DNA of 64,000 nt, from the NCBI RefSeq assembly GCF_030818905.1, contig NZ_JAUTAZ010000001.1, positions 1,736,001-1,800,000 on the forward strand. The letters run 5' to 3'. The notes under the pieces were generated by a model that did no database searches, was not told the DNA's origin, and saw only the letters and a list, made by a program, of their open reading frames with translations. The stretch is from Microbacterium sp. SORGH_AS_0888 (GTDB lineage Bacteria > Actinomycetota > Actinomycetes > Actinomycetales > Microbacteriaceae). Position numbers and translations under genes: made by a program. Position 1 is the first letter of the stretch. Each line of letters opens with the position of its first letter. Shown here piece by piece: positions 2-62,410 of this stretch.

Positions 2-931
2 CGCGGCGGCCATCGCGCGGTCGACGCGGCGGAGCTCGGCGCCACCGAGATCTGCGTACAGGGGATGCTGCCGCCCACCGAGGACGCCGGCGGCTACCTC
101 GAGGTCATCCGGGCGATCCGCGCCGCGGCTCCCGGCATCCACCTGCACGCGCTGCGGCCGCAGGACGTCCACGACCTCGCCGATCGCACCGGCCTCGGGC
201 TCGACGGCGCGCTCGCGGCGATGCGAGCGGCGGGCGTCGACACCGTGCCGGGCACGGGCGTGAAGGTGCTGTCGGAGCGGGTGCGCGGCATCGTCGCCCC
301 CGGCGACCTCGACATCGACCGCTGGGTCGAGGGCATCACGGCGGCGCACCGGGCGGGCTTCTCCTCGACGAGCGTGCTGTTCTACGGTCACGTGGAGACC
401 GCGCACGAGCGCATCGTGCATCTGCGCCGGCTCCGCGACATCCAGAGCCTCTCCGCCACTCCCCCTCTGGACGTCCCCCTTTTGGATGTCCCACTTTCGA
501 CCGCTCAGAGCCCCTCAGACCGGTCGAAAGTGGGACATGCCCAGCGGGAGTCCCCCGGCGGGTTCACGGAGTTCGTGCCGATCCCGCTGCCGGGGCCGCA
601 GGGCGGCGTGCCGCTCGTCGCGGACCGCTCCCCGCTCGACGAGCACCGCGCCATGGTGGCCGTGTCGCGGCTGCTGCTGGCGGGCAGCATCCGCCACATC
701 CAGATCCCGTGGACGCGCCACGACACCGCGACGACGGCGGCGCTGCTGCAGGCCGGCGGCGACGACCTCGGCGGCACGCTGCTCGACGGGCGCGTGCGTC
801 CCGAGACCGGCATCGAGCACGGTCACGAGCTGACCCTGGACGCCGCCGCCCGCCTCGTGCGTCCGCTGTTCCGTCCGCTCCGGCAGCGCGCGACCGACTA
901 CGGCGACGCCGGCCGGAAGCCGACCGCCTGA
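2..931 (+). CDS. cofH: FO synthase, CofH domain (FbiC/CofH), 5'-truncated by window edge
   Basis: This is the C-terminal part of 7,8-didemethyl-8-hydroxy-5-deazariboflavin (FO) synthase, the radical-SAM step that couples a tyrosine-derived radical to the flavin precursor in coenzyme F420 synthesis. The frame is open from base 2. Visible family signatures are GATEICVQG near the left edge, FYGHVETAHERIVHLRRLRD, and GGFTEFVPIPLPG. The radical-SAM CxxxCxxC lies upstream of the window, so fused FbiC and stand-alone CofH cannot be told apart. Between RDIQ and GGFTEFVP, where the family usually has only a few residues, there are about 35 extra residues encoded by a palindromic repeat (467-540) that stays in frame. 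The stop overlaps the next start (TGATG). Neighbours fgd, cofC and cofD support the F420 role. Confidence 0.9.
   Translation, partial: RGGHRAVDAAELGATEICVQGMLPPTEDAGGYLEVIRAIRAAAPGIHLHALRPQDVHDLADRTGLGLDGALAAMRAAGVDTVPGTGVKVLSERVRGIVAPGDLDIDRWVEGITAAHRAGFSSTSVLFYGHVETAHERIVHLRRLRDIQSLSATPPLDVPLLDVPLSTAQSPSDRSKVGHAQRESPGGFTEFVPIPLPGPQGGVPLVADRSPLDEHRAMVAVSRLLLAGSIRHIQIPWTRHDTATTAALLQAGGDDLGGTLLDGRVRPETGIEHGHELTLDAAARLVRPLFRPLRQRATDYGDAGRKPTA
467..540 (+). repeat. GTCCCACTTT three-box palindromic element, copy 1 (inside cofH)
   Basis: A lone half-site (469-483) is followed by a perfect 18-bp inverted repeat, 486-503 against 521-538, starting ATGTCCCACTTT and closing AAAGTGGGACAT. The same layout (half-site, short spacer, hairpin) recurs at 7554-7630, 49478-49554 and 62335-62410. 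This copy lies inside a coding region and is read through without a stop. Confidence 0.85.
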
Positions 932-2412
932 TGCTCGACACCGCGATCGTGGGCGCCGGCTTCGCCGGGCTCGGCATGGGGATGGCGCTGCGCGAGGCGG
1001 GGCGGTCCGACATCGCCGTGCTCGAACGGGGGGCGGATGTCGGGGGCACCTGGCGCGACAACACCTACCCGGGGGTCGCGTGCGATGTGCCGAGTCACCT
1101 CTACGGCTTCGCGCGGCGGCCGAACCCCGGATGGTCGGGCGTCTACGCCGAGGGCGCCGAGATCCAGGACTACCTGCGCCGCGCCGCGGCAGGCCTCGCC
1201 CCCCAGCTGCGGCTGCGCACACCGCTGCTCGGGGCCACGTGGGCCGGGGCGGCGTGGCGGCTCGAGACGGGCGGGCCCGATCCCGGAGTCACCTGGGCGC
1301 GCAGCCTCGTGCTCGCCTGCGGCCGGCTCACCGAGCCGCGCATCCCCGCCATCCGGGGGCTCGAGACGTTCGCCGGTCCGATGTTCCACACGGCCCGGTG
1401 GGACCATTCGACCCCTCTCGCGGGCACCCGCGTCGCGGTCGTCGGCACCGGCGCCTCGGCCGTGCAGCTCGTGCCCGAGCTCGTCCGTCGCGGCGCGCGC
1501 GTCACGCTGTTCCAGCGCACGCCGGCATGGATCGTGCCCCGTGAAGGGCGACGGTACACGGATGCCGAACGCCACCTTTTCGCGACACGCCCCGACGAGC
1601 TCGCCGCGCTCCGCGACCAGCTCTACCTCGAGGGCGAGGAACGCTACGCCTCCCGGTCGGGGGATGCCGAGGCCGCCGCGGCGGCGGAGGCCGTCGCCCG
1701 CGCGCACCTGGCCGCGCAGGTCGCCGACCCGGACCTGCGCCGGGCACTGACGCCCGACTACGCGTTCGGGTGCAAGCGCGTGCTGCTCTCGGACGACTTC
1801 TACCCGGCGCTCTCGTCCGGTGCCGTGACGTTCGAGCCGTCCGCCCTGTCCGCCGTCGAGGCGGGCGAGCTGGTCGCCGCATCCGGTGCCCGCTACCGCG
1901 CGGACGTCCTCGTGCTCGCGACCGGTTTCGCGTCGTCGCAGCAGCCCTACGCCGACCTCGTGCGCGGCGAGCACGGCACGCTGGCCGAGCACTGGTCGGG
2001 TGGGATGACCTCGTACGCGTCGACCGTGGTCGCCGGCTTCCCGAACCTCTTCGTGCTGAACGGGCCCAACGCCTCCCTCGGGCACAACTCGTCCGTGCTG
2101 ATGGCCGAGGCGCAGGCCGAGTACGTCGTGCGCGCCCTCGCGCTGCGCGACGAGCGCGGTGGTGTGCTGCGCGTTCGCCCGGACGCCGAGAAGACCTACA
2201 CCGCGCGGATCGACGAGGCCGCCGCATCCACGCCCTGGATCGCCGGCGGATGCGAGAACTGGTACACCGACGAGCGGTCCGGACGGCTCACGCTGCTGTG
2301 GCCCGGCACGGTGGACGCCTTCCGCGCGATGCTCCGCGGCAGTCGTGGCGACGAGTTCGACACCGGCAGCAACCGACCCCGCGATCCGTCGCGGACGAGA
2401 GGAGAACCATGA
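931..2412 (+). CDS. Flavin-containing / Baeyer-Villiger-type monooxygenase
   Basis: Predicted cytosolic FAD- and NADPH-dependent monooxygenase of 493 aa. The N-terminus shows an FAD Rossmann motif GAGFAG (about residues 8-13). It is followed by GGTWRDNTYPGVACD, the signature FxGxxxHxxxWD (FAGPMFHTARWD) that marks type I Baeyer-Villiger monooxygenases, a second nucleotide-binding motif GTGASA, and ATGF near the C-terminal third. The start at 931 was chosen because the Rossmann fold begins directly after it and it overlaps the cofH stop; the frame is open further upstream, but that extension is arginine-rich and resembles no family. It ends in an ATGA overlap with fgd, so it is probably co-transcribed with the F420 genes. 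The substrate is unknown. A direct F420 role is not implied by the family, which uses NADPH. Confidence 0.85.
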   Translation: MLDTAIVGAGFAGLGMGMALREAGRSDIAVLERGADVGGTWRDNTYPGVACDVPSHLYGFARRPNPGWSGVYAEGAEIQDYLRRAAAGLAPQLRLRTPLLGATWAGAAWRLETGGPDPGVTWARSLVLACGRLTEPRIPAIRGLETFAGPMFHTARWDHSTPLAGTRVAVVGTGASAVQLVPELVRRGARVTLFQRTPAWIVPREGRRYTDAERHLFATRPDELAALRDQLYLEGEERYASRSGDAEAAAAAEAVARAHLAAQVADPDLRRALTPDYAFGCKRVLLSDDFYPALSSGAVTFEPSALSAVEAGELVAASGARYRADVLVLATGFASSQQPYADLVRGEHGTLAEHWSGGMTSYASTVVAGFPNLFVLNGPNASLGHNSSVLMAEAQAEYVVRALALRDERGGVLRVRPDAEKTYTARIDEAAASTPWIAGGCENWYTDERSGRLTLLWPGTVDAFRAMLRGSRGDEFDTGSNRPRDPSRTRGEP

Positions 2413-3425
2413 CAACCCTCCCCCTGCGCCTGGGATACAAGGCTTCGGCCGAGCAGTTCCCGCCCGACGAGCTGGCAGACTACGCGGTGCTCGCGGAGGA
2501 GATGGGCTTCGACTCCGTCTTCATCTCCGACCACTTCCAGCCGTGGATGCACGAGGGCGGACACGCCCCGGCGGCGATCCCGTGGCTCGGCGCCGTCGGC
2601 GCGCGCACCTCCCGGGTCGTCCTCGGCACGAGCGTGCTGACGCCCACCTTCCGCTACCACCCGGCCGTCGTGGCCCAGGCCTTCGCGACGCTCGGCGTGC
2701 TCTACCCGGGGCGCATCGTGCTCGGCGTCGGCACCGGTGAGGCCCTCAACGAGGTCACGCTCGGTCTCGACTGGCCCGACGCTCCCGAGCGCTTCCAGCG
2801 GCTCAAGGAGTCGATCACGCTCATCGAGAAGCTGTGGGAGGGCGAGCGCGTCACGTTCGAGGGCAACTTCTGGCACGTGACGGATGCGACGGTGTACGAC
2901 CGGCCGACGACGCCGGTGCCGATCTACATCGGCGCCGCGGGACCGGCGGCGACCCGTCTCGCGGGCCGCATCGCCGGCGGGTTCATCACGACCAGCGGCA
3001 AGGACCCGAAGCTCTACACCGACACGCTGCTGCCCGCCCTGGCCGAGGGCATCGAGAAGGCGGGGCGCGCGGCGGACGAGGTCGACACGCTCATGGAGGT
3101 CAAGGTCTCGTACCACCCCGACCACGCCACGGCGCTGGAGAAGACGCGATTCTGGGCGCCCCTCGCCCTCTCGCCCGAGGAGAAGATGGGCGTGCACGAC
3201 CCGATCGAGATGCAGCGGCGCGCCGCCGAGCTGCCGATCGAGCGGGCGGCGTCGCGGTTCATCGTCTCGACCGACCCGGACGAGCACGTCGAGAAGATCG
3301 CCCGCTACGTCGAGCTCGGATTCCGGCACCTGGTGTTCCACGACCCCGGCGCCGACCAGGCCGAGTTCCTCCGGATGTACGGCGCCGAGATCCTGCCGCG
3401 ACTGCGCGCCCGCTTCGGCGCGTGA
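2409..3425 (+). CDS. fgd: F420-dependent glucose-6-phosphate dehydrogenase
   Basis: Luciferase-like (LLM class) F420-dependent oxidoreductase of 338 aa, predicted to oxidise glucose 6-phosphate to 6-phosphogluconolactone while reducing F420. Similarity to mycobacterial Fgd1 runs the whole length: LGYKASAEQF at the N-terminus, SDHFQPW with His42 and Trp46 at the positions of the catalytic His40/Trp44, and GVGTGEALNE with Glu111 at the position of catalytic Glu109. Also visible are TSGK and SDPDEHVEKI-type segments typical of Fgd. A good ribosome binding site (gaggaga) precedes the ATG. The gene overlaps its neighbours at both ends (ATGA and GTGA), consistent with one operon that makes and reduces F420. 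Confidence 0.92.
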   Translation: MTTLPLRLGYKASAEQFPPDELADYAVLAEEMGFDSVFISDHFQPWMHEGGHAPAAIPWLGAVGARTSRVVLGTSVLTPTFRYHPAVVAQAFATLGVLYPGRIVLGVGTGEALNEVTLGLDWPDAPERFQRLKESITLIEKLWEGERVTFEGNFWHVTDATVYDRPTTPVPIYIGAAGPAATRLAGRIAGGFITTSGKDPKLYTDTLLPALAEGIEKAGRAADEVDTLMEVKVSYHPDHATALEKTRFWAPLALSPEEKMGVHDPIEMQRRAAELPIERAASRFIVSTDPDEHVEKIARYVELGFRHLVFHDPGADQAEFLRMYGAEILPRLRARFGA

Positions 3426-4015
3426 GCTGGACCGTCGTCGTCCCGCTGAAGCCGGCGGCGCGCGGCAAGTCCCGGCTCACCGGGGCGTCGGTCGAGCTCG
3501 TGCGTGCCATCGGTCTCGACACCGTGACCGCCGCGGTGGGTGCGGCATCCGTCGTCCGCGTGGTCGTGGTCACCTCGGATGCGGCGACCGCGGCGGCCGT
3601 CGCGGATGACGCGCGGGTGACCGTGGCCCCCGACCCGGGCGCGGGGCTCAACGCCGCGATCGCGGCGGGGGTTGCTGTGGCGGGTGCGGGGCCGGTGGCG
3701 GCACTGCTCGGCGATGTTCCCGCCCTCGTGCCGGCCGAGCTCGACCTCGCGCTCGGCCTCGCCGCCCGGCATCCGCGCTCCGTGGTGCCGGATGCCGAGG
3801 GCACCGGCTCGACCCTCGTCACCGCCGCAGGGGTGCCGTGGGAGTCGGCGTTCGGCCCCGACTCGTTCGCCCGGCACCTGGCGCTCGGGTGCGTCCCGCT
3901 GGCGGTGGATGCGGCATCCGGCCTGCGACGCGACGTCGACACGCTGGCGCAGCTGCGCGCCGTGCTCGACCGTGCCGGGCCCCTCACCCGCGCGGCGTGG
4001 ACCGCCGGGGCCTGA
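3422..4015 (+). CDS. fbiD: 2-phospholactate / phosphoenolpyruvate guanylyltransferase (CofC/FbiD)
   Basis: This 197-aa nucleotidyltransferase activates 2-phospholactate or phosphoenolpyruvate with GTP, supplying the donor for CofD/FbiA in F420 synthesis. The N-terminus VVVPLKPAARGKSRL is the characteristic GTP-binding start of CofC. Further matches are GAGLNAAIAAG, ALLGDVPAL, VPDAEGTGSTL and the terminal GLRRDVDT. Initiation is at GTG 3422, overlapping the fgd stop as GTGA. The next intact F420 gene, cofD/fbiA, lies about 4.4 kb away on the other strand, separated by an insert. A decayed copy of this gene's 3' half is found at about 6136-6420. Confidence 0.9.
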   Translation: MSWTVVVPLKPAARGKSRLTGASVELVRAIGLDTVTAAVGAASVVRVVVVTSDAATAAAVADDARVTVAPDPGAGLNAAIAAGVAVAGAGPVAALLGDVPALVPAELDLALGLAARHPRSVVPDAEGTGSTLVTAAGVPWESAFGPDSFARHLALGCVPLAVDAASGLRRDVDTLAQLRAVLDRAGPLTRAAWTAGA

Positions 4016-4050
4016 ACCCGCTCCCGCGCCCGGGCTCGCGGCGCGCTCCG

Positions 4051-4102
4051 CCCCTCCGCCCTCCCCCCAGTCCCTCCGCCCTCCCCCCAGTCCCTCCGCC
4101 CT
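4051..4102. repeat. 20-bp tandem repeat downstream of cofC
   Basis: The pyrimidine-rich unit tccctccgccctccccccag occurs about 2.6 times in tandem (period 20) in the 299-bp intergenic region after cofC. A single unit is kept in the decayed duplicate near 6421-6440. Apart from this and the adjacent hairpin, no gene is seen in 4016-4314. Confidence 0.7.
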
Positions 4103-4108
4103 ACCCAC

Positions 4109-4178
4109 CTGCGGGGATTGTGCCCGACACGCCGCGCCACACGGCTCCACCCCGGCGTGTCGCCCACGATCCCCGCAG
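4109..4178. repeat. Long imperfect hairpin downstream of cofC, copy 1
   Basis: Two 26-nt arms (4109-4134 and 4153-4178) beginning CTGCGGGGAT and ending ATCCCCGCAG pair with three mismatches around an 18-nt loop. It could act as a terminator for the F420 operon, but there is no U-run. A second, more degenerate copy lies at 6447-6515 inside the duplicated block. Confidence 0.65.
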
Positions 4179-4301
4179 TTGCGGATGGATGCCGCGACGC
4201 CCCACACGCCCGATCGGCTCGGGCGAGAACCGGCCGGCCCGAAGGCTGGCCGCGCGGTCACGGCCGTAGACCCGGTGCCCGCCAGAACACCCTGCTGCCT
4301 G

Positions 4302-4307
4302 TAGCGT
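4302..4307 (+). promoter_or_regulatory. Putative -10 box (TAGCGT), leaderless promoter
   Basis: TAGCGT lies 7 nt before ATG 4315 with no ribosome binding site in between. This is the same geometry as other genes in the window and suggests leaderless transcription. Confidence 0.4.
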
Positions 4308-4314
4308 CACACAC

Positions 4315-4659
4315 ATGGTGCAGGCCTCTCCGCTCGAACGTGCTCGACCGTCATGGCGGCTTCTGACAACGGCGACGGTCTTCGGCGCCGTCACCATCGC
4401 CCTCATCTGGTCTCTCGCGGTGCCGTACGGGGTACTCGTGTGCGCCGCCGATTCGACCGCCTGCTATCCGCAGTTTCGCGCAGGAAGCGGCGTGATCGCT
4501 TCCTGCGCGGTCGCTGTCCTCCTGGCAGGAACGGTCACCGTCGGCATGTTCGCCCCGCGCCTTCGCGGCATCATCATCAGCGGAGTCGCTGTTCTCGGTG
4601 CGGCGCCTCTCGTCACATACGTCGCCATCTCTTACAGTCCGGGTTTCGAGCTCGGCTGA
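4315..4659 (+). CDS. Small membrane protein, unknown function
   Basis: A 114-aa protein with three predicted membrane segments: about residues 16-36, 60-80 and 85-107. A Cys-containing loop (VCAADSTACYPQF) lies between the first two. I recognise no family. It starts at ATG 4315, right after a TAGCGT box. It sits at the left end of an AT-richer insert between cofC and the decayed cofC/tauE block, next to a secreted protease gene. The 151-aa membrane protein at 6770-7225, in the second part of the insert, has a similar size and style but no clear sequence match. Confidence 0.6.
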   Translation: MVQASPLERARPSWRLLTTATVFGAVTIALIWSLAVPYGVLVCAADSTACYPQFRAGSGVIASCAVAVLLAGTVTVGMFAPRLRGIIISGVAVLGAAPLVTYVAISYSPGFELG

Positions 4660-4736
4660 GAGATCATCGCTATGAATCTTGACATACCAAAAGACCCCCG
4701 TTGCGTTGTGAGCGTAATCAAAGATTAGGGGGAATC

Positions 4737-6049
4737 ATGACTACACGTCGCTCATTTTTGCTAGTCGCGATTGCGAGCGCGACCCTATCCATCGCACTGG
4801 GAAACGCCAGCTACGCAGCGCCGACAACCTCAGAAGTCAATCCCGAGCATGTCGGACTTATCCCCTTCAACGCTCCGATCCCCGAGGGGCTGGACCGCGC
4901 GGAACCGATTGCGATGGAATCTGGAATCTAGAGTTCACTGAAGCAGGATCCAAGGTGAATTCATACATTTGGAATGAAGATTCCGAAAGCTTGTCGATAT
5001 ACAGCGCGGAATCTTTCGAATACTGGGAACCTTTAATCACGAAACACTTTCCGGACGAGCGAGTACACCTCGTTCCCGCAAAGACATCACAGGAGGAAAT
5101 AGAAAAACTCACGTCGATCGTGGTTGCGACCGGCGGAAAGCTCTCCGATGGGACGCAGGTCGTCACTGTTGTGCCCGAGAACGACGGAGCCTACGTCACC
5201 ATCGGCGTACAACAATCTGACGGCATGGTGCTACCTTCTAGCGAAGCCCTACGAAAAGCACTCGGTACCCCCGTGCCCCTCATCGTCGAAGCTGCCTCCG
5301 ATGTGGCGTCGGCTCAGCGCAACATCTCGCCGATTTCTACCATCTGGGTGGGCGGCGCGGTCGACAGTAGCGGTATCACAGATGGCTACTACACGAAGTG
5401 CAGCACGGCCTTTCGGATTGGGAATTTGACAGATTCAACGGTCGGAATGCTATCGGCCGATCATTGCGGCAGCGGGAAGCCAACGAATTCTTGGTACTTT
5501 TCTACGAATCAGACATCAACAAGTTCATTGGGAACCTACCAGGGTTCACTAGCTAGCGTCTGGCCTGTCTCGGACACTGCTCTATGGACAGGTGGAAACG
5601 TGTCCAAACTCTACCCGATACTCTTAACCGGCGACCACAATGATCCAAACACATCGCAACTTGTCAGAGGCGGCAACTACCCGGCTGTCGGAACGGAAGT
5701 GTGCTACTCCGGTTCCCAGTCTGGAAACGTCTGCAGCAACGATGTTCTATATCAGAACGTAACGGTCTGCTATCCGGGCTCAAACTGTTATTCAAGCCTC
5801 ACTTGGACAAGCCAGCAGTCCGATGTTCCTGCTGCCGGAAACGGCGATAGTGGCGGCCCCGTTTACCAAATGGTGAATGGCTTGCTCAAGGCATCGGGAG
5901 TGATTAGCGGAATCATCAACGGCACATCCACGTGCACCGGCGAACCTGGCTCTTCCGGGGGACGACAGTGTAGTTCGGTTGCACTTTTCGCTCCGATTGC
6001 AGCAGCCCTAGGCGGCTCCAGCAGTTGGGGGTTGTCTTACTATCCGTGA
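4737..6049 (+). pseudogene. Secreted trypsin-like (S1) serine protease, frameshifted after the signal peptide
   Basis: The first reading frame starts at ATG 4737 behind aggggga and encodes a signal peptide (MTTRRSFLLVAIASATLSIA) plus a short propeptide, stopping at 4931. The downstream frame (open from about 4905, first usable GTG at 4955) continues without a gap in sense: DGIWNLEFTEAGSKVNSYIW. The protease domain shows SADHCG (His), SDTALW (candidate Asp) and GNGDSGGPVY (Ser), the chymotrypsin-fold triad of streptogrisin-like secreted enzymes. It has several Cys residues likely to form disulfides. The shift near 4914-4930 equals one missing base (or two extra). Base composition is clearly lower in GC than the flanks, which suggests transfer. 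Expression as an intact enzyme is doubtful unless the shift is a sequencing error. Confidence 0.75.
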
Positions 6050-6135
6050 GCCACGGGTCGCGCCAACAGCGACTTGAGGAGCCGAATAGGGATATGACAT
6101 TTCCCCGGGCAAGCCCAATGATATCGCCGAAGGGC

Positions 6136-6545
6136 TCCGGCGCAGGGCTCAACGCGGCGATCGCGGCAGCGGTTGTTAGCGGGCATCGGACCGATGGCGG
6201 CGCAGCTCGGCGATGCTCCCACCCTCATGTCGGCTGAGTTCGCGTTCGGCCTTGCCCGGCATCCGCGTTCCGTAGTGCCGGATGACGAGGGCACACCGGC
6301 TCTACCCTCGTCGCCGCCGCGGGGCGCCGTGGGAGTCTGCGTTCGACCCCGACTTGTTCGCCTGGCACCTTGATCTCGGGGCTGTCCCACTCATGCTCGA
6401 CGTCGCGGCCGGGCTCCGCCCTCCCCAGTCCCTCCGCCCTGCCCACCTGCGGGCATTCCGCCCGACACGCCACGCCACACGGCCCCACCCGGCGTGTCGC
6501 CCACGATCCGCGCAGTTGCGGATGGATGCCGCGACGCCGGGCTCC
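6136..6545 (+). pseudogene. Decayed duplicate of the cofC 3' half and its downstream region
   Basis: By eye the stretch from ggctcaacgcggcgatcgcgg onward tracks 3641-3930 of cofC, including the LGDVPAL and HPRSVVPDAEG coding regions, but with frame-breaking indels. It then jumps about 100 bp and continues with the cofC downstream region (pyrimidine repeat, hairpin, gttgcggatggatgccgcgacgcc). No open frame is retained. With the following tauE remnant it keeps the order cofC-tauE, so it is a second, degraded copy of that junction. Confidence 0.75.
6447..6515. repeat. Long imperfect hairpin, copy 2
   Basis: Counterpart of the 4109-4178 hairpin within the duplicated block. The inner arms around CGACACGCC/GGCGTGTCG are kept while the outer arms have drifted. 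Confidence 0.55.
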
Positions 6546-6554
6546 TGAGTCGCG

Positions 6555-6665
6555 CCCTCAGAACAGCAGATACACGGCGCCGACCACGATGAAACGATCC
6601 CGAGCCGATCGAAGACCGCCTGGTTCGGCCGACCGGCGAGCGATCCCCGGCCGAGCTGCGTTCCG
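6555..6665 (-). pseudogene. Decayed duplicate of the tauE 3' end
   Basis: The bases around cagaacagcagatacacggcg closely match 7664-7780, the C-terminal codons and stop region of the intact tauE gene on the minus strand, with several substitutions and small gaps. It follows directly on the cofC remnant. Only the last 30 or so codons are recognisable. Confidence 0.65.
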
Positions 6666-7553: not shown

Positions 7554-7630
7554 CATGTCCCACTTTGCACCGCTCGCGCGGTGGCTGAGCGGTGCAAAGT
7601 GGGACATGAATCGGTGCAAAGTGGGACATG
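7554..7630 (-). repeat. GTCCCACTTT three-box palindromic element, copy 2
   Basis: A perfect 21-bp inverted repeat (7554-7574 against 7588-7608) has outer sequence CATGTCCCACTTT and inner GCACCGCT. A further direct half-site, CGGTGCAAAGTGGGACATG, lies at 7612-7630. Orientation is opposite to copies 1 and 3. It sits just downstream of the tauE stop, at the right boundary of the insert. Confidence 0.85.
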
Positions 7631-30894: not shown

Positions 30895-32216
30895 CAGCCG
30901 CCGGCGGCGGGCGTCGTCCCCGCCGCCGCCTCGGTGAGCTCGGGACCGGTGCGGAACAGCGCCGTCCAGCCCTGGCCGACGGCACCGACATCGCTCATGC
31001 GGTAGCCGAGCCGGTTGACGGTCTCTTCGTTGGCGCCCGGGAGGGCGTAGGCCGTGCCGGTCGCGTCGACGAGGGTGAGGATGCCGCTGGCCTGGTTACC
31101 ACGTCCGCCCGCACGCACGAGGGCACCGGAGCCCGGCGCGACCGAGATGCCGGCCTTCGCGTCCGCCGTGGCGCTCTGGGAGGCGAGAACGGTCTCGGCG
31201 CCGTCGGCCGTCGCGGTCAGGAGGGCGCAGGGGCGCTGCGACGAGGCAAGCCCGGTGAAGCCGTTCGTCGGCCAGTCATCGCCCCCGGCGGGTGGGGCGG
31301 TCGGGAGGTTCGCGGTCTCGGCGGGGCTCACCTCGACGACCTGGTCGGACGTGCTGCCGCTGCCGAGGAGGTACAGCTGCCAGGCGAGCGGCGTGAGCGG
31401 CGCGAGGCTGCCGTCGGTCTGCACGACGTATCGCTTGTCGTCAGGGGTGCCGCGCGAGTGCACGACGTCGCCGATGGCGAGGGTCGAGCCCGCGAGGCCC
31501 TGGCCGGCACGGTCGACGACGAGCGGCTGCAGCGGCGTTCCCTGGACGAACAGGTTGAGCCAGTCCGCGGAGACCTTGACGGGATCGGCCGCGGTGATGC
31601 CCGCGGCGCGCAGGACGGCGTCGGCGCCGTTCGCCGGGACGGCGTAACTGCGGCCGCCCGCGACGACGTAGAGCCTGTTTCCCATCGAGACGACCGCGGC
31701 GGCATCGGTGGGGACCGGCCCGGTCTGGCCGACGCGCACGTCGATTCCCGCGTCGGAGACCGCGCAGGCACTCCAGCCGGAGTTGCTCAGCCGGTCGGGC
31801 GCGGGCAGTTCATCGGGCGCTCCGACGATGCCGAGGGTCGAACCGACCGCGACGCCGGCGAGATTCTGCTGATCCGTCGTGATGACGCCGAAACCCGACG
31901 CGGGAAGCAGCAGTCGAGCGCTCGCCGTGTTGATCACGGGATGCAGGGTCCCCTCGACCGTGACGAAGCGCGCGCCGGTGTCGGAGACGAGCACGAGCTT
32001 GCCGTTCTCCCACCCGTTCGGCAGCCCCGGCTTGACGAGTCCGTAGAAGACGCCGACCAGGACGACGCCGAGGGTGAGGGCGATCGCGGCGATGACCGCC
32101 CGCAGGGGCGCCGCCGGCTGCAGTTCCTTGCCGCCGGGAGCGCCGCTGACGAACGCGGTCAGCAGACGACGACGGGAGAAGTTCTGCGCCTCGATCAGGT
32201 CGCTCTTGGTCGCCAT
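30894..32216 (-). CDS. eccB: Type VII secretion core protein EccB
   Basis: A 440-aa single-pass protein of the ESX membrane complex. The N-terminus ATKSDLIEAQNFSRRRLLTAF is the family hallmark, followed by one membrane helix (VIAAIALTLGVVLVGVFYGLV). The large extracytoplasmic repeat domain has NGKLVLVSDTGARFV, then conserved Cys residues in SGWSACAVSD and SQRPCALLTA, likely disulfide-bonded. It lies between eccD and mycP. Typical length. Confidence 0.95.
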   Translation of the reverse strand: MATKSDLIEAQNFSRRRLLTAFVSGAPGGKELQPAAPLRAVIAAIALTLGVVLVGVFYGLVKPGLPNGWENGKLVLVSDTGARFVTVEGTLHPVINTASARLLLPASGFGVITTDQQNLAGVAVGSTLGIVGAPDELPAPDRLSNSGWSACAVSDAGIDVRVGQTGPVPTDAAAVVSMGNRLYVVAGGRSYAVPANGADAVLRAAGITAADPVKVSADWLNLFVQGTPLQPLVVDRAGQGLAGSTLAIGDVVHSRGTPDDKRYVVQTDGSLAPLTPLAWQLYLLGSGSTSDQVVEVSPAETANLPTAPPAGGDDWPTNGFTGLASSQRPCALLTATADGAETVLASQSATADAKAGISVAPGSGALVRAGGRGNQASGILTLVDATGTAYALPGANEETVNRLGYRMSDVGAVGQGWTALFRTGPELTEAAAGTTPAAGG

Positions 32217-48320: not shown

Positions 48321-48465
48321 CCTCCGAGTGTGTCACCGGACCCCGTCCGCGTGCGACAGCGACCACGTGCGCACGACAGTGACATGACAGCGGGTGTCCC
48401 GCGACGGCAGCGGGACGACAGCGGCCCGGTCGCACGATGGGATCACCGCCACAGAAAGGCAACCC

Positions 48466-49476
48466 ATGAACGCTTCCGCCACCCCCGCGGTGCACGCCGA
48501 GGGCCTCGTCAAGGTCTTCGGCGACAACCGCGCCGTCGACGGCGTCGACCTGCACGTCGCCGCCGGAACCGTCTACGGCGTGCTCGGACCCAACGGCGCC
48601 GGCAAGACCACGACCATCAACATGCTCGCCACTCTGCTGCGCCCCGACGCGGGCCACGCGGAGATCTTCGGCCACGACGTCATGCACTCGCCCCAGATCG
48701 TACGGCAGCTCATCGGCGTCACCGGCCAGTTCGCCTCGGTCGACGAGACCCTGTCGGCGACCGAGAACCTCGTGATCTTCGGCCGCCTGCTGGGCTTGTC
48801 ACGCGCCGAGGCACGAGACAAGGCCGTCGACCTGCTCGAGCGCTTCAGCCTGACGGATGCCGCCAAGCGTCCCCTCAAGAAGTTCTCGGGCGGGATGCGG
48901 CGACGCCTCGACCTCGCCGCATCCCTCATCGCCCAGCCGCCGCTCATCTTCCTCGACGAGCCCACGACCGGCCTCGACCCCCGCACCCGCGGTCAGATGT
49001 GGGACACCATCCGCGAGCTCGTCGCGAGCGGATCGACGGTCCTCCTCACGACCCAGTACCTCGACGAGGCCGACCAGCTCGCCGACCGGATCGCGGTCAT
49101 CGATCGCGGCCGCGTCGTCGCCGAGGGCACATCGGACGAGCTGAAGGCCTCGGTCGGCACGTCGAGCCTGCAACTGCGGCTCGCCGACCCCGGCGACAAC
49201 GACGACGCGCTGCGCGCCATCGAGCGCGTGCTCGGTGTGCACGGGACGCTGTCGCCCGAGGCGTCACGCATCACAGCCCCCATGGCGGATGCCGACAGGG
49301 TCGCCGACCTGCTCATCCTCTTCCGGGAGGAGGGCATCCACCTCGCCGAGATGAGCGTGCAGAAGCCGACGCTCGACGAGGTGTTCCTCACCATCACCGG
49401 CCACGGCGCCGACCAGACGAGCCGCACCGACCAGGACGCCGACGCGTCCGAGAGCAAAGAAGAGGTGACCGCATGA
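48466..49476 (+). CDS. DrrA-type ABC transporter ATP-binding protein
   Basis: A 336-aa ABC ATPase of the daunorubicin-resistance type. Walker A is GPNGAGKTTT, the Q-loop is GVTGQFASVDETLSATEN, the signature is KFSGGMRRRLDLAASL, Walker B is PLIFLDEPTTGLDPRT, and the H-loop region reads LLTTQYLDEADQLAD. The C-terminal extension ends VQKPTLDEVFLTITGHGA, the characteristic DrrA tail. The start at 48466 is the ATG before NASATP; upstream codons are not conserved. The partner permease follows after a 97-bp gap filled by a palindromic element. Confidence 0.93.
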   Translation: MNASATPAVHAEGLVKVFGDNRAVDGVDLHVAAGTVYGVLGPNGAGKTTTINMLATLLRPDAGHAEIFGHDVMHSPQIVRQLIGVTGQFASVDETLSATENLVIFGRLLGLSRAEARDKAVDLLERFSLTDAAKRPLKKFSGGMRRRLDLAASLIAQPPLIFLDEPTTGLDPRTRGQMWDTIRELVASGSTVLLTTQYLDEADQLADRIAVIDRGRVVAEGTSDELKASVGTSSLQLRLADPGDNDDALRAIERVLGVHGTLSPEASRITAPMADADRVADLLILFREEGIHLAEMSVQKPTLDEVFLTITGHGADQTSRTDQDADASESKEEVTA

Positions 49477-49477: not shown

Positions 49478-49554
49478 CATGTCCCACTTCCCGACGGGAG
49501 ATGTCCCACTTCTGCCCGCTTCTCGCCCCGCTGAGCGGTCCGAAGTGGGACATG
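49478..49554 (+). repeat. GTCCCACTTT three-box palindromic element, copy 3 (between ABC genes)
   Basis: A lone half-site CATGTCCCACTTC (49478-49490) and spacer ccgacgggag are followed by an inverted repeat with outer arms ATGTCCCACTTC (49501-49512) and GAAGTGGGACAT (49542-49553). It starts 2 bp after the ATPase stop and ends 20 bp before the permease start, separating two genes that are normally translationally coupled. Confidence 0.85.
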
Positions 49555-49573
49555 GTGAGGGGAGGGATGCGGA

Positions 49574-50407
49574 ATGAGCACTCTCATCGCACCGGTGCCC
49601 TCGCGAATCGTGCCTGCCGAGGACCGCCACCTGAAGAACCGAACCAGCGTCGCGCAGACCGTGCAGAACACGTTCACGATGGCGTACCGCGGTCTCGTCA
49701 AGATCCGCCGCACCCCCGAGCAGCTCATCGACGTGACGGTGCAGCCGATCATCTTCACGCTGATGTTCGCCTACATCTTCGGCGGCGCGATCGCGGGCGA
49801 CGTGCAGAGCTACCTGCCCGCTCTCATCCCCGGCATCCTCGTGCAGACAGTCATCACGACCTCGGTCGTGACCGGCACCCAGCTGCGCGAGGACATGGAC
49901 AAGGGCGTGTTCGACCGCTTCCGCTCGCTGCCGATCGCCCGCATCGCTCCGCTCTCCGGAGCGCTGCTGGCCGACACCGTGCGCTACGCGATCGCGACGA
50001 CGCTGACCTTCGCGATGGGATACGTCATGGGATATCGACCCGCCGGCGGTCTCGGCGCCGTCATCGGCGCGGGCGTGCTCGTGATCGTCTGCTCGTGGGC
50101 GATCAGCTGGATCTTCGCCTTCTTCGGCGTCATCGCCCGCACCGCCTCCAGCGTGCAGGGCATCTCCATGCTGATCCTGTTCCCGCTCACGTTCCTGTCC
50201 AACGCCTACGTGCCGGTCGACACGCTGCCCTCGTGGCTGGCCTGGTTCGCGAACATCAACCCGATCTCGCACCTCGTCACCGCCGTCCGCGACCTCGCCA
50301 ACAACGGCGCTGTGTCCGGGGACCTGTGGATCTCGCTGCTGGGAGCCGCCGTGATCGTGGCGGTCTTCGCGCCCCTCACGGTGCGCGCCTACATGCGGAA
50401 GGCCTAG
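49574..50407 (+). CDS. DrrB-type ABC transporter permease
   Basis: A 277-aa ABC-2 type permease with six membrane segments. ALIPGILVQTVITTSVVTGT and GTQLREDMDKGVFDRFRSLP are the family signatures, with PLTFLSNAYVPVDTLPSWLA and NPISHLVTAVRDL near the end. It works with the preceding ATPase to export a drug, lipid or natural product. Its 3' end overlaps the convergent regulator gene by 4 bp. Confidence 0.93.
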   Translation: MSTLIAPVPSRIVPAEDRHLKNRTSVAQTVQNTFTMAYRGLVKIRRTPEQLIDVTVQPIIFTLMFAYIFGGAIAGDVQSYLPALIPGILVQTVITTSVVTGTQLREDMDKGVFDRFRSLPIARIAPLSGALLADTVRYAIATTLTFAMGYVMGYRPAGGLGAVIGAGVLVIVCSWAISWIFAFFGVIARTASSVQGISMLILFPLTFLSNAYVPVDTLPSWLAWFANINPISHLVTAVRDLANNGAVSGDLWISLLGAAVIVAVFAPLTVRAYMRKA

Positions 50408-54164: not shown

Positions 54165-54170
54165 GGCGGG

Positions 54171-55777: not shown

Positions 55778-55783
55778 AGAGCC

Positions 55784-56275: not shown

Positions 56276-56321
56276 GCCCGCGAGGCCGGTAGTGCGCTCG
56301 GGCGCGGTTGGGGGCGCTGGC

Positions 56322-57506: not shown

Positions 57507-57558
57507 GTTTCCACCTTAGGTTCGAGCGGATTGTGGGAGGGGGCGGGTGGGTGCGCAT

Positions 57559-57621
57559 AACTCAGACAGTTCGGGTCCCTGAGGCGTCGACCGGGCCGAT
57601 CGGCGTGATTCTGCCTGAGTT
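57559..57621. repeat. Inverted repeat upstream of the thiolase gene
   Basis: AACTCAGACAG (57559-57569) and CTGCCTGAGTT (57611-57621) form 11-nt arms with one mismatch, separated by 41 bp. It lies in the 133-bp gap between the CoA-transferase stop and the thiolase start and could be an operator or a palindromic repeat. Confidence 0.45.
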
Positions 57622-57639
57622 GTGAACACCTCGAGCGGG

Positions 57640-58287
57640 TCACGAAGGCGATTCGAGCCGCACGATGAGCTCGGGCTCGGTCGCGGCCACGACGTCGTCG
57701 ACCGTGACGCCCGGCGCGACCTCCACGAGCACGAGGCCCGCCGCCGTCACGTCGATCACCGCGAGATCCGTGATGATCCGGTCCACGACGCGTCGGCCGG
57801 TCAGCGGCAGCGAGCACTCGTGCACGATCTTGGGCGATCCGTCCTTGGCGACGTGCTCCATCAGCACGATCACCCGCCCCGCCCCGTGCACGAGGTCCAT
57901 CGCCCCGCCGGGGCCCTTGACCATCTTCCCGGGGATCATCCAGTTCGCCAGGTCTCCGGATGCCGACACCTGCATCGCGCCGAGGATCGCGGCGTCGATC
58001 TTGCCCGCACGGATCATCCCGAAGCTCGTCGCCGAGTCGAAGAACGACGCGCCCGGCAGGACCGTCACGGTCTCCTTGCCGGCGTTGATGAGGTCGGGGT
58101 CGACCGCGTCCTCGGTCGGGTAGGGACCGACCCCGAGAAGCCCGTTCTCGGACTGCAGGACGACCGTGACACCATCCGGTACGACGTTCGGCACGAGCGT
58201 CGGCAGACCGATCCCGAGGTTCACGTACGCGCCGTCGGCGAGCTCACGTGCCGCGCGCGCGGCCATCTCGGTGCGGCTGCGTGCCAT
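57640..58287 (-). CDS. scoB: 3-oxoacid CoA-transferase subunit B
   Basis: A 215-aa beta subunit. The catalytic Glu47 lies in [10 protein letters not shown]. Further conserved parts are [33 protein letters not shown] and [19 protein letters not shown]. Together with subunit A it moves CoA from succinyl-CoA to a 3-oxoacid (acetoacetate or 3-oxoadipate). The start ATG 58287 is 1 bp after the subunit A stop. A second, separate subunit B begins at the right edge of the window. Confidence 0.92.
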
Positions 58288-58288
58288 G

Positions 58289-59062
58289 TCAGTTCCCTCC
58301 CGCGCGCACGGCGCGCTTCTCGATGCGCTTCTCGATGTGGGTGCCGACCTCGACGATCCGGTGCACGAACACACCCGGCAGGTGCACCGCATCCGGATCG
58401 ATCTCGCCCGGCTCGACCAGCCGCTCGACCTGCGCGATGCAGGTGCGCCCCGCCATCGCCGCGAGCGGGTTGAAGTTGCGCGCGGTCTTGTGGAAGACGA
58501 GGTTGCCGTGGCGGTCGCCGACCGCCGCGTGCACGAGGGCGAAGTCGGTGACGATCGCCTCCTCCAGCACGTACTCGCGGGTGATGCCGCCGACCTCGAT
58601 CGGTCTCACCTCTTTCTCGGGCGATGCGACGGCCACGCTGCCGTCGGCGGCGTAGCGGCGCGGCAGGCCGCCCTCGGCGACCTGCGTGCCGACGCCGGTC
58701 TGGGTGAAGAACGCCGCGATGCCCGCTCCTCCGGCACGCAGCTTCTCGGCGAGCGTGCCCTGCGGGGTGAGCTCGAGCTCGAGCTCACCCGAGAGGAACT
58801 GTCGCTCGAACTCCTTGTTCTCGCCGACGTAGGACGAGGTCATCTTGCGGATGCGGTGGGCGTTCAGCAGGATGCCGAGGCCCCAGTCGTCGACACCGCA
58901 GTTGTTCGAGACGATGCTGAGGTCGCTCGTTCCCTGTGCATGGAGCGCCTCGATGAGCACCATGGGATTGCCGGAGAGGCCGAAGCCGCCGACGGCGATG
59001 CTCGCGCCGTCCGGGATGTCGGCGACGGCCGCTGCCGCGGTCGGGATCCGCTTGTCGATCAC
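58289..59062 (-). CDS. scoA: 3-oxoacid CoA-transferase subunit A
   Basis: A 257-aa alpha subunit. [20 protein letters not shown] is the CoA-binding start of the family. [35 protein letters not shown] and [20 protein letters not shown] are typical SCOT-like segments, and [23 protein letters not shown] follows. Its ATG is 167 bp from the divergent IclR gene, which probably regulates it. Confidence 0.92.
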
Positions 59063-59222
59063 TCGTGCTCCTTTGCCAGCTGTGCCACCGTCCCTCCGGC
59101 ATCGTGGGGACCCGACCGGGTCTCCACGCGCCCGGGGTCGCGGAAGTCGTGCGTCTCATGGTCGGGGCGCTGCCCGCGCCATCGCACGTCCGCGCTTGCC
59201 ATGTGGAACACGGCGTGCGTAT

Positions 59223-59239
59223 TGTCCATATCGTGGACA
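59223..59239. promoter_or_regulatory. Palindromic operator overlapping the iclR start
   Basis: TGTCCA-TATCG-TGGACA is a perfect 6-bp inverted repeat with a 5-bp spacer. It includes GTG 59233 and lies between the divergent scoA and IclR-family genes. It fits an IclR autoregulatory site. Confidence 0.55.
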
Positions 59240-60015
59240 CCGCACACGCGACCACCGGCGCGCAGGCGGTCACGCGCGCCGCGCGCCTGCTGCGGCTCGT
59301 GACGGCGGCCGGGACGGCGGGGGCTTCGACCGCGGGTCTGGCCGAGGCGGCCGGGCTCTCCCGTCCGACCGTCCACCGCATCCTCGCCGCGCTGCGCACC
59401 GAGGGTCTCGTCGACCAGGACGAGCGCACCTCCCGCTGGGCAGCCGGCCCCGAGCTGTATCTCATGGGAACCGTCGCGGCGGCACGCTACGACATCACCG
59501 CGACCGCGCGCGATGTCGTGCGCTCGCTCGCCGTGCGCACGGAGGAGAGCGCGTTCCTCTCGGTGCGCCGCGGCGACGAGACGGTGTGCCTCCTGCGTGA
59601 GGAGGGGAGCTTCCCGATCCGGTCGTTCGTGCTGAGCGAGGGGGTCCGCTTCCCGCTCGGGGTCGCATCGGCGGGACTCGCCATCCTCGCGTTCCTGCCG
59701 CCCCATGATGTGGACGCCTACTTCGAGCGGCACCCCGAGCTGCCCGAGCGCTGGGGCGCCGCCCACGCCGAGGCGCGGCTGCGCGACCGGCTGGCCGAGA
59801 CCGCCGCGCGGGGGTACTGCGTCAACCCCGGGCTCATCGTCGAAGGCAGCTTCGGCATGGGCGCCGCCGTGTTCACCCGCGAGGGCGATCCGCAGTGGGC
59901 GCTCAGCATCACGGGCGTGCAGTTCCGGTTCGGGCCCGAACGGATCGCCGAGCTCGGCCGCATCCTGCTCGCCCATGCGCACCAGCTGTCGGCCCGCATC
60001 GCCTCCCGTCGTTGA
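59233..60015 (+). CDS. IclR-family transcriptional regulator
   Basis: A 260-aa regulator with an N-terminal winged helix (AVTRAARLLRLVTAAGTAGAS, LAEAAGLSRPTVHRILAALRTEGLV) and a C-terminal effector domain (SFVLSEGVRFPLGVASAGLAILA, GYCVNPGLIVEGSFGMGAAVF). GTG 59233 was chosen because the winged helix follows directly and no ribosome binding site serves an upstream start. The start codon is inside a palindrome. It is divergent from scoAB and is the likely regulator of the CoA-transferase/thiolase unit. Confidence 0.88.
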   Translation: MDTAHATTGAQAVTRAARLLRLVTAAGTAGASTAGLAEAAGLSRPTVHRILAALRTEGLVDQDERTSRWAAGPELYLMGTVAAARYDITATARDVVRSLAVRTEESAFLSVRRGDETVCLLREEGSFPIRSFVLSEGVRFPLGVASAGLAILAFLPPHDVDAYFERHPELPERWGAAHAEARLRDRLAETAARGYCVNPGLIVEGSFGMGAAVFTREGDPQWALSITGVQFRFGPERIAELGRILLAHAHQLSARIASRR

Positions 60016-60083
60016 GCGTGGGGTGGTCACCCGCCGAGCTCGGCTGAGCGCCGTCACCGGATCGGCGGCAGTGAGCGGACCTC

Positions 60084-60986
60084 TCAGGCGTGGCAGTCCA
60101 GCGGCTGACGCCCGTTGTACTCGTACATGTCCTGCCAGGCGGCCGCGACGTCGAGCGGCCCCCCGTCGAGCTCGGCGAGCTCACGGTGCAGGTTGCCGAC
60201 GATGCGCTCCTTCTCGGCGAGACCCGCGAAGGGCCCCAGATCCAGGGCGCGGGCGGCCTCCAGCGGAGAGAGTCCCCGCTCGTGCGCGTCGCGCGCCTGG
60301 GCGATGAGGAAGCGCAGGTAGTCGGCGACCGGGGCGAACAGCTCCGGGCCGCCGATCTCGCCATGTCCCGGCACGACCGTGACCGGGTCGAGCGCAGCCA
60401 TCTGCTCGATCGCGCGCAGCCAGCCCGCCGGCGACCCGGAGAGCACGAACGGGGTGCCGCCGTGGAACACGAGGTCGCCGGTGAAGAGGATGCGCTCCTC
60501 GGGCAGCCAGACGTATGCGTCGCCGGCGGTGTGCGCCGGCCCTCCCGGATGCCGCACCTCGATGCGGCGACCGTGCGGATCGATCGTGAGGTCGCTGTCG
60601 AAGACGATCGTGGGCGTGCGGGCGTGGACCTCGCCCTGCTCGAACGGCGTGAAGATCTCACCGACCGCGGGGTGCACCTGCTGGAGGTCGAGAGCCGTGT
60701 TGCGGTGGGCGATGATCTCCGCGTCGGGCACGAGCGACGTGCCGTTGCAGTGGTCGGGGTGCGAATGGGTCAGCACGATCCGCCGGATCGGCGAGGCGAC
60801 CGCCCGGGCGGCCGCGAGGTAGTCGCGCGTGCGGCGCTCGGTCGAGGTCAGGTCGACGCTCGTCGCACCGCCCTCGCCCTCGATGAGGCCCATGTTGTTG
60901 ATCATCCAGCCGCCGTCAGGCTGGATGTAGGCCCAGACGCGGTCGGTCAGCGGGTGGAGCGTCGGTTCGCCGGCGGTGTGCGTCAT
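60084..60986 (-). CDS. MBL-fold metallo-hydrolase
   Basis: A 300-aa metallo-beta-lactamase-fold hydrolase. The dinuclear metal motif is LTHSHPDHCNG. Other ligands are in GGPAHTAGDAYVWLPEERIL (His) and FTGDLVFHGG (Asp), and VVPGHGEIGG ends the site. ATG 60986 begins MTHTAGEP; the 60 in-frame codons upstream look non-coding. It might open a lactone or thioester in the aromatic-acid pathway suggested by its neighbours, but this is inference. Confidence 0.85.
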   Translation of the reverse strand: MTHTAGEPTLHPLTDRVWAYIQPDGGWMINNMGLIEGEGGATSVDLTSTERRTRDYLAAARAVASPIRRIVLTHSHPDHCNGTSLVPDAEIIAHRNTALDLQQVHPAVGEIFTPFEQGEVHARTPTIVFDSDLTIDPHGRRIEVRHPGGPAHTAGDAYVWLPEERILFTGDLVFHGGTPFVLSGSPAGWLRAIEQMAALDPVTVVPGHGEIGGPELFAPVADYLRFLIAQARDAHERGLSPLEAARALDLGPFAGLAEKERIVGNLHRELAELDGGPLDVAAAWQDMYEYNGRQPLDCHA

Positions 60987-61162
60987 CGCTGTCGGTCCTC
61001 TCCTGGCCTCCCTCGTCGGAGGCCAGGGTTTCAGCCTTTCAGCGCCCTCCGCACCGCACAATCGCGACTCGGCTATGCCGGCTATCCGCATTCCGGATGG
61101 TGCCTGGCACGGCCTTCCGGTCCGGCCGCCCGCGCGTCCGCTCCCCGCGCCGTCGCCTCCGC

Positions 61163-61251
61163 GCATCGCGCGCACGCGGCATCCGTCCGGCCGTTCTCCC
61201 GAGCACGCCCTCGTCGCGGCCTCGCATCGCGCGCACGCGGCATCCGTCCGG
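61163..61251. repeat. Direct repeat in the intergenic region 60987-61424
   Basis: A 28-bp sequence starting GCATCGCGCGCACGCGG occurs at 61163-61190 and again at 61224-61251 (period 61). The rest of this 438-bp stretch is GC-rich without a credible gene on either strand. The palindromic gatatc at 61390 is the only other feature noted. Confidence 0.55.
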
Positions 61252-61424
61252 CGTCGGCGCCGAACTCGACACGACCCCTGAGGGGTGGGCCGCCATCGAC
61301 GTCGACCGTGCGTCGGCGGAGCCGACGACGCACGCCGCGGTCCGTAGCGCCGGGTCGAGGCCGGCCTCGACCGCCGGTGAGGAGCCGCGATATCTCAGTA
61401 CCGCGGGCGACGAGCGCGGAGCGG

Positions 61425-62210
61425 TCAGATCAGACGCACATCGGCGTCGATCGCCGCGGCGGTCTGCCGCAGCGGCGGCACGAGTGCGGCACGCACCTGC
61501 GCGAGAGTACCGCGGGTCGCGCTCGTCGACACGTTGACCGCCGCGATCACGGATCCGTCCTTGCCGTGCACGGGCGCCGCGATCGATCGGAGCCCCGGCT
61601 CGAGCTCGCCGTCCACGAGGGCCCAGCCCTGCGCGCGCACCCGCTCGAGCTCCGCGCGCAGCGCCTCCGGGTCGGTCAGGGTGCGGCCCGTGAAGTGCTC
61701 ACGGGCAGAGGATGCGAGCACGGCGTCGCGGTCGGCATCCGGGAGTCCGGCGAGCAGGACGCGGCCCATGCTGGTCGCGAACGCCGGGAAGCGGGTCCCG
61801 ATCGTGATGCGCACGCTCATGATCCGGCGCGTGGGGACGCGCGCGACGTACACGATGTCGGTGCCGTCGAGGACGGCGGCGGATGCCGATTCGTCGACCT
61901 CGCGCGACAGCCGCTCCAGGTGCGGCTGCACCAGCTCGGGGAGCGAGAGGGAGGAGAGGTAGCTGAAGCCGAGCTCGAGCACTCGCGGCGTGAGGGCGAA
62001 CAGCCGGCCGTCGGTGCGCACGTAGCCGAGCGCGGTGAGGGTGTGCAGGAAGCGGCGCGCCGCGGCACGCGTCAGCTCCGCCCGGCGCGCGACGTCGCTG
62101 AGGCTCAGCTCCGGGTGCTCCGCGTCGAACGCGCGGATGACGGCGAGCCCGCGCGCGAGCGACTGCACGAACTCGCCCGACGCCGCCGCATCCGTATTCT
62201 CCGCAGCCAT
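61425..62210 (-). CDS. pcaR: IclR-family regulator, PcaR/PobR type
   Basis: A 261-aa regulator. The winged helix reads FVQSLARGLAVIRAFDAEHP and LSDVARRAELTRAAARRFL, the opening typical of the PcaR/PcaU/PobR branch. LGYVRTDGRLFALTPRVLEL and YVARVPTRRIMSVRITIGTR follow, and the effector domain ends AAVNVSTSATRGTL. ATG 62210 is preferred over GTG 62216 on ribosome-binding-site spacing (gagagg). The neighbouring thiolase and CoA-transferase suggest control of the beta-ketoadipate pathway. An 8-bp tandem array lies in its upstream region. Confidence 0.87.
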   Translation of the reverse strand: MAAENTDAAASGEFVQSLARGLAVIRAFDAEHPELSLSDVARRAELTRAAARRFLHTLTALGYVRTDGRLFALTPRVLELGFSYLSSLSLPELVQPHLERLSREVDESASAAVLDGTDIVYVARVPTRRIMSVRITIGTRFPAFATSMGRVLLAGLPDADRDAVLASSAREHFTGRTLTDPEALRAELERVRAQGWALVDGELEPGLRSIAAPVHGKDGSVIAAVNVSTSATRGTLAQVRAALVPPLRQTAAAIDADVRLI

Positions 62211-62231
62211 ACTCACCCTCTCTTCCTCGCT

Positions 62232-62295
62232 GAACCTCTGAACCCCTGGACCTCTGGACCTCTGGACCTCTGGACCTCTGGACCTCTGGACCTCT
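62232..62295. repeat. 8-bp tandem repeat array upstream of the PcaR-type regulator
   Basis: Six perfect copies of GGACCTCT (62248-62295) are preceded by two variant copies (GAACCTCT, GAACCCCT). The array covers 22 to 85 bp upstream of the regulator's start codon, where promoter elements would be expected. Confidence 0.85.
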
Positions 62296-62334
62296 GCCGC
62301 TCTGCCCCGCCTTCATCCCTACGCCTCCCCCTGC

Positions 62335-62410
62335 ATGTCCCAGTTTGGACCGCTGGGCGGGTCGCCCAGCGGTCCAAACTGGGACATCACCAGGAGGAAA
62401 GTGGGACATG
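62335..62410 (-). repeat. GTCCCACTTT three-box palindromic element, copy 4
   Basis: A perfect 25-bp inverted repeat (62335-62359 against 62363-62387) has a 3-nt loop; outer sequence ATGTCCCAGTTTGGACC. The extra half-site AAAGTGGGACATG lies at 62398-62410. The stem has G/C changed on both arms (CAG/CTG for CAC/GTG), a compensatory pair, while the lone half-site keeps the usual form. Confidence 0.85.

Follow-up and report, generated by a model that had tools for sequence, protein, structure and literature searches.

The stretch of DNA analysed here (the window) comprises 64,000 nucleotides (nt), G000:C1:1736001-1800000, within the 3.64 Mb single-contig genome of Microbacterium sp. SORGH_AS_0888. 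It contains four copies of a dispersed palindromic element, a hairpin accompanied by a direct repeat of its own half-site, which we relate below to a nuclease-like gene elsewhere in the same genome. An earlier note on this DNA had reported four such copies, two of them inverted; all four are present, with copies 2 and 4 on the minus strand. In window coordinates, the copies and the features bordering copy 3 are as follows.

471-538, plus strand: copy 1; degenerate lone half-site at 471-481, 15 bp upstream and off register; hairpin at 486-538
7555-7629, minus strand: copy 2; hairpin at 7555-7607, outer direct box at 7608-7629 (core 7619-7629)
49473-49476, plus strand: ATGA 5′ of copy 3; end of the upstream open reading frame (ORF; 48394-49476); relatives have a single ATGA at this junction
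49479-49553, plus strand: copy 3; outer direct box at 49479-49500, hairpin at 49501-49553
49554-49573, plus strand: tail of copy 3; 20 nt, purine-rich, Shine-Dalgarno-like (GGGGAGGG)
49574-49577, plus strand: ATGA 3′ of copy 3; start codon of the downstream ORF (49574-50407)
62335-62409, minus strand: copy 4; hairpin at 62335-62387 with the CAG variant in both arms, outer direct box at 62388-62409 (core 62399-62409)

The element and its dispersed copies

The lone half-site had been described as separated from the hairpin by a spacer of 2-16 nt. Instead, in three of the four window copies and in 37 of the 42 copies found genome-wide, a third box in direct orientation begins precisely 22 bp outside one hairpin arm (2 mismatches in the 11 box positions were tolerated at most). 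Copy 1 departs from this otherwise shared three-box layout: here the lone half-site is a degenerate one, GTCCCCCTT, at a distance of 15 bp, and the copy lies inside an open frame (65-931) with no resolvable gene end close by. The change from CAC to CAG on both arms was confirmed in copy 4. Within the window, GTCCCACTT with at most one mismatch gave 17 matches against 7.4 ± 3.0 expected, a number reached in 1 of 100 shuffles. A short tandem repeat, CCTCTGGA, adjoins copy 4 at 62241-62297.

In the whole genome the half-site ATGTCCCACTT matched 83 times and the reversed control pattern did not match at all; each of the 41 half-site clusters contains an inverted pair whose starts are 42 bp apart. 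A fixed-register scan recovered 42 hairpin copies, a lower bound because it covered only the stretches around half-site matches and the window. Every aligned copy is a 53-nt palindrome with arm starts 42 bp apart, and the consensus, drawn by eye, reads ATGTCCCACTTYCGACCGGNGC, then ATGTCCCACTTTCGACCGCTCR, 9 nt and YGAGCGGTCGAAAGTGGGACAT. Copies look denser between 1.65 and 2.10 Mb, in the middle of the contig. The expectation of many copies per genome was therefore borne out, and the structured family extends beyond this genome, since 82 of 149 genomes of the genus contain elements recognised by a covariance model.

Stem differences between copies, said to be always two-sided, proved largely compensatory. 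Some inner positions of copy 3 are unpaired, and at arm positions 10-20 of the 42 copies, 407 of 462 cells pair, compared to 384 ± 4.8 with the right arms shuffled (0 of 5000 shuffles as high). In a cross-species sample of 54 copies, selected at equal span and aligned without gaps, 90.8% of stem cells pair, compared to 33-42% in slid registers, and 184 cells are doubly changed, compared to 56 ± 7 after shuffling. Since one protein should not demand copy-specific arms, the covariation among copies within the genome suggests hairpin formation or arm-to-arm correction. Folded as RNA, the 42 hairpins have a mean minimum free energy of -37 kcal/mol. No head of the GTAG/GTGG type was seen by eye in these copies with their flanks, nor in the 54 aligned copies, which start with NTGTC. 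Rfam returned 22 matches up to E 1 in five loci (21 to microRNA models, one to hepatitis B virus epsilon), none at the gathering score.

Insertion sites

Two copies were compared with the corresponding junctions of relatives. At genome position 3503594, between two sugar-type ABC permease genes (named by eye), the element is present in 0 of 23 relative loci aligned on both flanks (6 of 29 loci lacked two aligned flanks, and 27 of 295 genomes were unscored). In relatives this junction is an overlapping or abutting stop/start, mostly ATGA, and in the present genome CATGAGC stands on both sides of the element. At the site of copy 3, all 24 relative loci with both flanks aligned have a single ATGA junction and no element (99 genomes searched), while the present genome reads ...GCATGACC, element, 20-nt tail, ATGAGC.... 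Both sites are insertions.

A similar setting recurs among the 42 copies. In 8 of them ATGANC stands immediately before the first box (background frequency 0.0012, p 4e-16), and the commonest 4-nt flanking repeat is ATGA 2 nt before the box combined with ATGA 20 nt after the hairpin (4 copies; the spacings tried average 0.3). GGGAGG or GGGGAG occurs in the G-rich tail of 14 of the 42 copies versus 48 of 1663 control windows. As read from a table of crude GC-frame gene calls, 22 copies have the 3′ end of a codirectional gene, and 4 copies a gene 5′ end, no more than 100 nt from their outer-box end.

The nuclease-like gene and its flanking palindromes

Outside the window, a gene at genome positions 1,290,065-1,290,976 with a 307-residue product is flanked by two inverted palindromes, the copies at 1289881 (plus) and 1291080 (minus). 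In three other genomes of the genus, element pairs approximately 1.1 kb apart enclose homologs of this protein, in two neighbourhoods that differ from the locus described here. No second gene was found between the flanking palindromes in the four loci read, in which no search for a DUF1814 toxin was made. Other candidate carriers were rejected. A fourth element pair (1.3 kb), in genome G408, encloses a different, longer and ordinary-looking ORF, and the ORFs between the other inverted pairs of the present genome look, by eye, like ordinary genes.

The DUF559 model (PF04480; curated cut-off 20.6 bits) is passed by two of three proteins (24.6 and 21.4), the 307-residue protein scoring below it (16.2). 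All three match MTES_1575 (PF18741) below its cut-off (E 3.6e-06 to 0.0011), AbiEi models weakly match two of the three (approximately E 0.0006), and NCBIfam and PADLOC matches are weak throughout. An AlphaFold2 model of the 307-residue protein has a mean predicted local distance difference test score of 91.3. By VIA-align of this model, on which the fold names rest, the predicted N-terminal part has an AbiEi-like fold and the predicted C-terminal part is nearest to the nucleases I-Bth0305I, NGO0050 and Vsr. E200, D233, E244, H250 and D260 are invariant over 23 sequences; the predicted model and the alignment together show the fold and the conserved acidic and histidine residues of an EDxHD/Vsr nuclease core. 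Foldseek gave no match to the predicted model at E 0.001 or better, and a sequence profile compared with the PDB gave NGO0050 as the sole plausible relative, weakly (E 0.077). The product is thus predicted to join an AbiEi-antitoxin-like domain to a Vsr/EDxHD-like nuclease domain. Among the best 120 of 415 homologs, most are named 'hypothetical protein', a few 'DUF559 domain-containing protein' and one 'very-short-patch-repair endonuclease'. Named records with the gene in a scan of species genomes are nearly all Microbacterium. Contigs labelled Stenotrophomonas maltophilia P13 and Planococcus sp. APC 4015 (L122, L172) carry Microbacterium-like homologs, possibly through assembly contamination.

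The earlier note had likened the element to the repetitive extragenic palindromic (REP)/RAYT type. The REP-like behaviour and an associated gene were supported, the gene being nuclease-like; a RAYT or integrase was not, with 0 matches to Y1_Tnp (PF01797) at E 0.001 in this genome versus matches in 5 of 14 control genomes (relatives were not searched). An ordinary REP/RAYT element that no longer has its RAYT, or has one too diverged to be recognised, would share the layout given in the excerpted text of PMC2817692, namely inverted palindromes around a gene, coevolution and dispersed copies. Nevertheless, the flanked gene has another predicted fold and the GTAG/GTGG head was not seen by eye, and we find this reading scarcely credible.

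Palindromes are concentrated beside the gene. In the main locus set (the best 80 of 363 relatives in the species-genome scan), 136 palindromes lie in the 54.7 kb within approximately 330 bp of the gene versus 26 in the 329 kb more than 800 bp away, a 31-fold higher density. After removal of six loci with a flank below 330 bp, 66 of 74 genes have a palindrome on either side and 42 have one on both. Among 108 control genes in 58 relative loci, which come largely from two homologous regions and hence are not independent, 17 have a palindrome on either side and none on both; a smaller control within the same loci gave 1 of 15 and 0 of 15. One genome (G352, L079-L081) has tandem palindrome arrays with a 63-bp period, up to six in a row.

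This association reaches beyond the genus. Homologs at E 1e-15 occur in 146 of 246 genomes sampled from the class, and in the 30 best loci of this sample (one per genome, eight from the same genus) 46 palindromes lie in 21 kb near the gene versus 5 in 54 kb elsewhere, the copies flanking the gene of the present genome, too imperfect for the threshold of 15-of-18 pairing, not being among the 46. Of the loci from other genera, 19 of 22 have at least one palindrome, in sequences that differ by lineage; L211-L225, for instance, carry their own palindromes beside the gene, of types such as TGATCATGGAGAAATCGG and CAGAGAAGTGGGGCACCTG. The present genome also encodes a second homolog (31,122-32,048; L226 1523-2449) flanked by a different palindrome, of the GAGCCGTCACAAAACGCG type, which has a few probable dispersed copies (17 matches versus 4 in the control at up to two mismatches) and seems present also at about 1082175, 1277651 and 1583475. 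Many of loci L169-L195 hold a second Microbacterium protein subfamily (approximately 46-51% identity) with flanking palindromes of the GTCCAAGACACGC type.

The sequence of the palindrome tracks the protein rather than the genome. In the 10 usable genomes among 13 with two homologs (three same-genome pairs were dropped), each of the 20 comparisons gave a larger box difference for the same-genome paralog (5.0 to 11.0 of 18) than for the nearest protein from a different record (0.4 to 6.6). Over 64 loci, the 80 minus 16 without a TGTC..GACA palindrome, the Mantel r is 0.69 (0 of 2000 permutations as high). These results bear on the idea that the element is a miniature form of a conventional DDE insertion sequence with TGTC...GACA ends, the nuclease-like gene being a frequent passenger. 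Ends of the TG...CA type and short duplications of the insertion site are typical of DDE elements, but a passenger role would not make palindrome identity follow the protein. Furthermore, all 41 half-site clusters contain the 42-bp inverted pair, and between five inverted pairs of the present genome no transposase was seen by eye (one ORF is the nuclease-like gene and the rest look ordinary; no genome-wide DDE search was made). We consider this origin improbable.

Genus-wide, 47 outer boxes were found at 21-22 bp beside 138 hairpins of 110 loci, 46 of them gene-distal, with further boxes at 42 bp. In a search open to TGTC...GACA spans of 40-69, 131 of 135 measured 49-51 (both sets include some species twice), and this near-constancy speaks for spacing by a protein. 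Transcription terminators or mRNA-stabilising hairpins under selection, with palindromy kept by template switching, would account for the strength of the hairpins and for the many copies right after stop codons. They would leave unexplained the sequence-specific conserved ends, a near-fixed span regardless of arm sequence, the distance of the outer box and the clustering at one gene family, and such an explanation is very improbable.

Elements and gene also co-occur. Five or more covariance-model matches were found in 38 of 41 genomes with a close homolog (E 1e-95 or better; the present genome excluded) versus 26 of 107 others (Fisher p 9e-15), from counts that comprise at most 39 scored candidates per genome on both strands and so rank genomes rather than give copy numbers.

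The other suggestion of the earlier note, a protein-binding site, is probably also true by analogy: in length and layout the boxes are like the 23-bp inverted repeats, interrupted by gaps of 3 bp or 13 bp, that AbiEi and Rv2827c bind in their own promoters according to the excerpted text of PMC7319586. Taken as the whole explanation, the boxes would be sites of an AbiEi-type autoregulator, with gene-side copies serving as operator and dispersed copies regulating or organising genes, and the protein would confer no mobility. The fixed 21/22/42-bp geometry is protein-like and the predicted N-terminal part has the AbiEi fold, as such a regulon would have it. However, the gene is often flanked downstream too, most copies of the present genome lie away from promoters, insertion is clear at two sites, and the conserved nuclease-type residues would be left unexplained. 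A purely regulatory role is thus unlikely.

A proposed mobile element and its relation to known systems

With a probability of roughly 0.7, we propose that this is a short mobile element, non-autonomous, behaving like a REP and served by a dedicated EDxHD-like nuclease. From the sequences and the predicted model we infer how the protein may bind the boxes, cut and move the element, and by what route. The AbiEi-like domain would recognise each 22-bp box, with the palindrome taking two protomers and the outer box one more, all on one helix face (steps of approximately 21 and 42 bp). The nuclease domains would cut the element plus a TGA/ATGA target at gene ends, and a copy of approximately 97 nt (box, hairpin and ribosome-site tail) would be placed at the gene end with ATGA on both sides, which would spare the upstream stop as well as the downstream start. 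The substrate could be either double-stranded DNA or an extruded single-stranded hairpin. Two inverted copies would make the gene itself a mobile unit, and solitary copies would be non-autonomous derivatives. The 23-bp repeats bound by AbiEi-type proteins, together with the target of nearly 60 bp on which I-Bth0305I dimerises (excerpted text of PMC3943268), fit the 22-bp box and the 53-bp palindrome. A broader version, to which we give even odds, is that AbiEi-like/EDxHD nucleases are, class-wide, selfish genes bounded by their own palindromes, an independent second solution to the problem solved by REP/RAYT. In Microbacterium the palindromes would then have given rise to tens of escaped, non-autonomous copies, which insert where stop and start overlap in ATGA and bring a ribosome-binding tail, keeping the host operon working.

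Several observations weigh against the proposed mobile element. No palindrome above threshold flanks 8 of the 74 related genes on either side, and the two copies flanking the gene of the present genome are imperfect, were found by sequence and fall below 15-of-18 pairing (none is listed beside the gene in L086 or L196). The VIA-align list also contains unrelated rows of similar Z (mitoribosomal proteins at 9.8-9.9, the MenT1 toxin at 8.3), and the near-constant span fits protein spacing as well as a hairpin. At least 10 model matches occur in 14 of 107 genomes without a close homolog (G344 and G395 among them), among genomes with a close homolog G328 (77% complete) and G369 have 0 matches and G375 has one, and the co-occurrence test is uncorrected for phylogeny. 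Dispersed copies are established within Microbacterium genomes alone. Finally, a general target duplication was sought at all 42 copies: ATGA was the one word found, nothing else shared between the flanks stood out, and the same ATGA picture could result from selection that keeps stop and start codons intact.

Dispersed bacterial palindromes are usually explained via HUH transposases (RAYTs), whose signatures (inverted palindromes around the gene, coevolution and dispersed copies) recur here with an unrelated family of nuclease-like proteins. If the proposal is true, an orphan protein family mostly annotated as hypothetical protein would gain a function, short palindromes would have a second case of spreading and being tolerated, and naturally diversified protein/site pairs would be available for direct testing.

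Among known systems, the AbiEi antitoxins (type IV toxin-antitoxin system AbiE; Rv2827c) differ in that the protein described here continues C-terminally into a nuclease-like domain, that the four loci read show no second gene between their flanking palindromes, and that the sites are also downstream and genome-wide. Unlike EDxHD homing endonucleases (I-Bth0305I) and Vsr, the gene has no intron seen here, is associated with many dispersed short elements and has an AbiEi-like DNA-binding part. The protein that gave MTES_1575 (PF18741) its name differs in having more than 2,000 residues, a multi-domain architecture and a link to HEPN conflict systems, and the excerpted text of PMC3710099 that describes it mentions no palindromes. 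In our searches of open-access PMC text, we found no paper that links DUF559 or AbiEi proteins, or this protein family, to dispersed palindromes. In the searched text of a survey of GTAG/CGTC-tagged repeats (PMC3733652), the words Actinobacteria, Microbacterium, Clavibacter and Leifsonia are absent.

REP with RAYT/TnpA-REP (REPtrons, REPINs) is the closest system in logic, its defining enzyme not being found in the present genome. The excerpted texts of PMC2817692 and PMC8266576 describe dispersed, lineage-specific palindromes that coevolve with a gene between inverted copies and show compensatory arm changes, as here. In contrast, the enzyme described here is a predicted Vsr/EDxHD-like nuclease with an AbiEi-like domain rather than a Y1 HUH enzyme, the element is a 53-nt palindrome with a third box 22 bp outside and no GTAG/GTGG head seen, and the hosts are Microbacterium and other genera of its class. 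Because, as far as our searches show, the open-access literature does not tie this nuclease superfamily to dispersed palindromes, its pairing with them would be new; by logic alone, it is of the REP kind.

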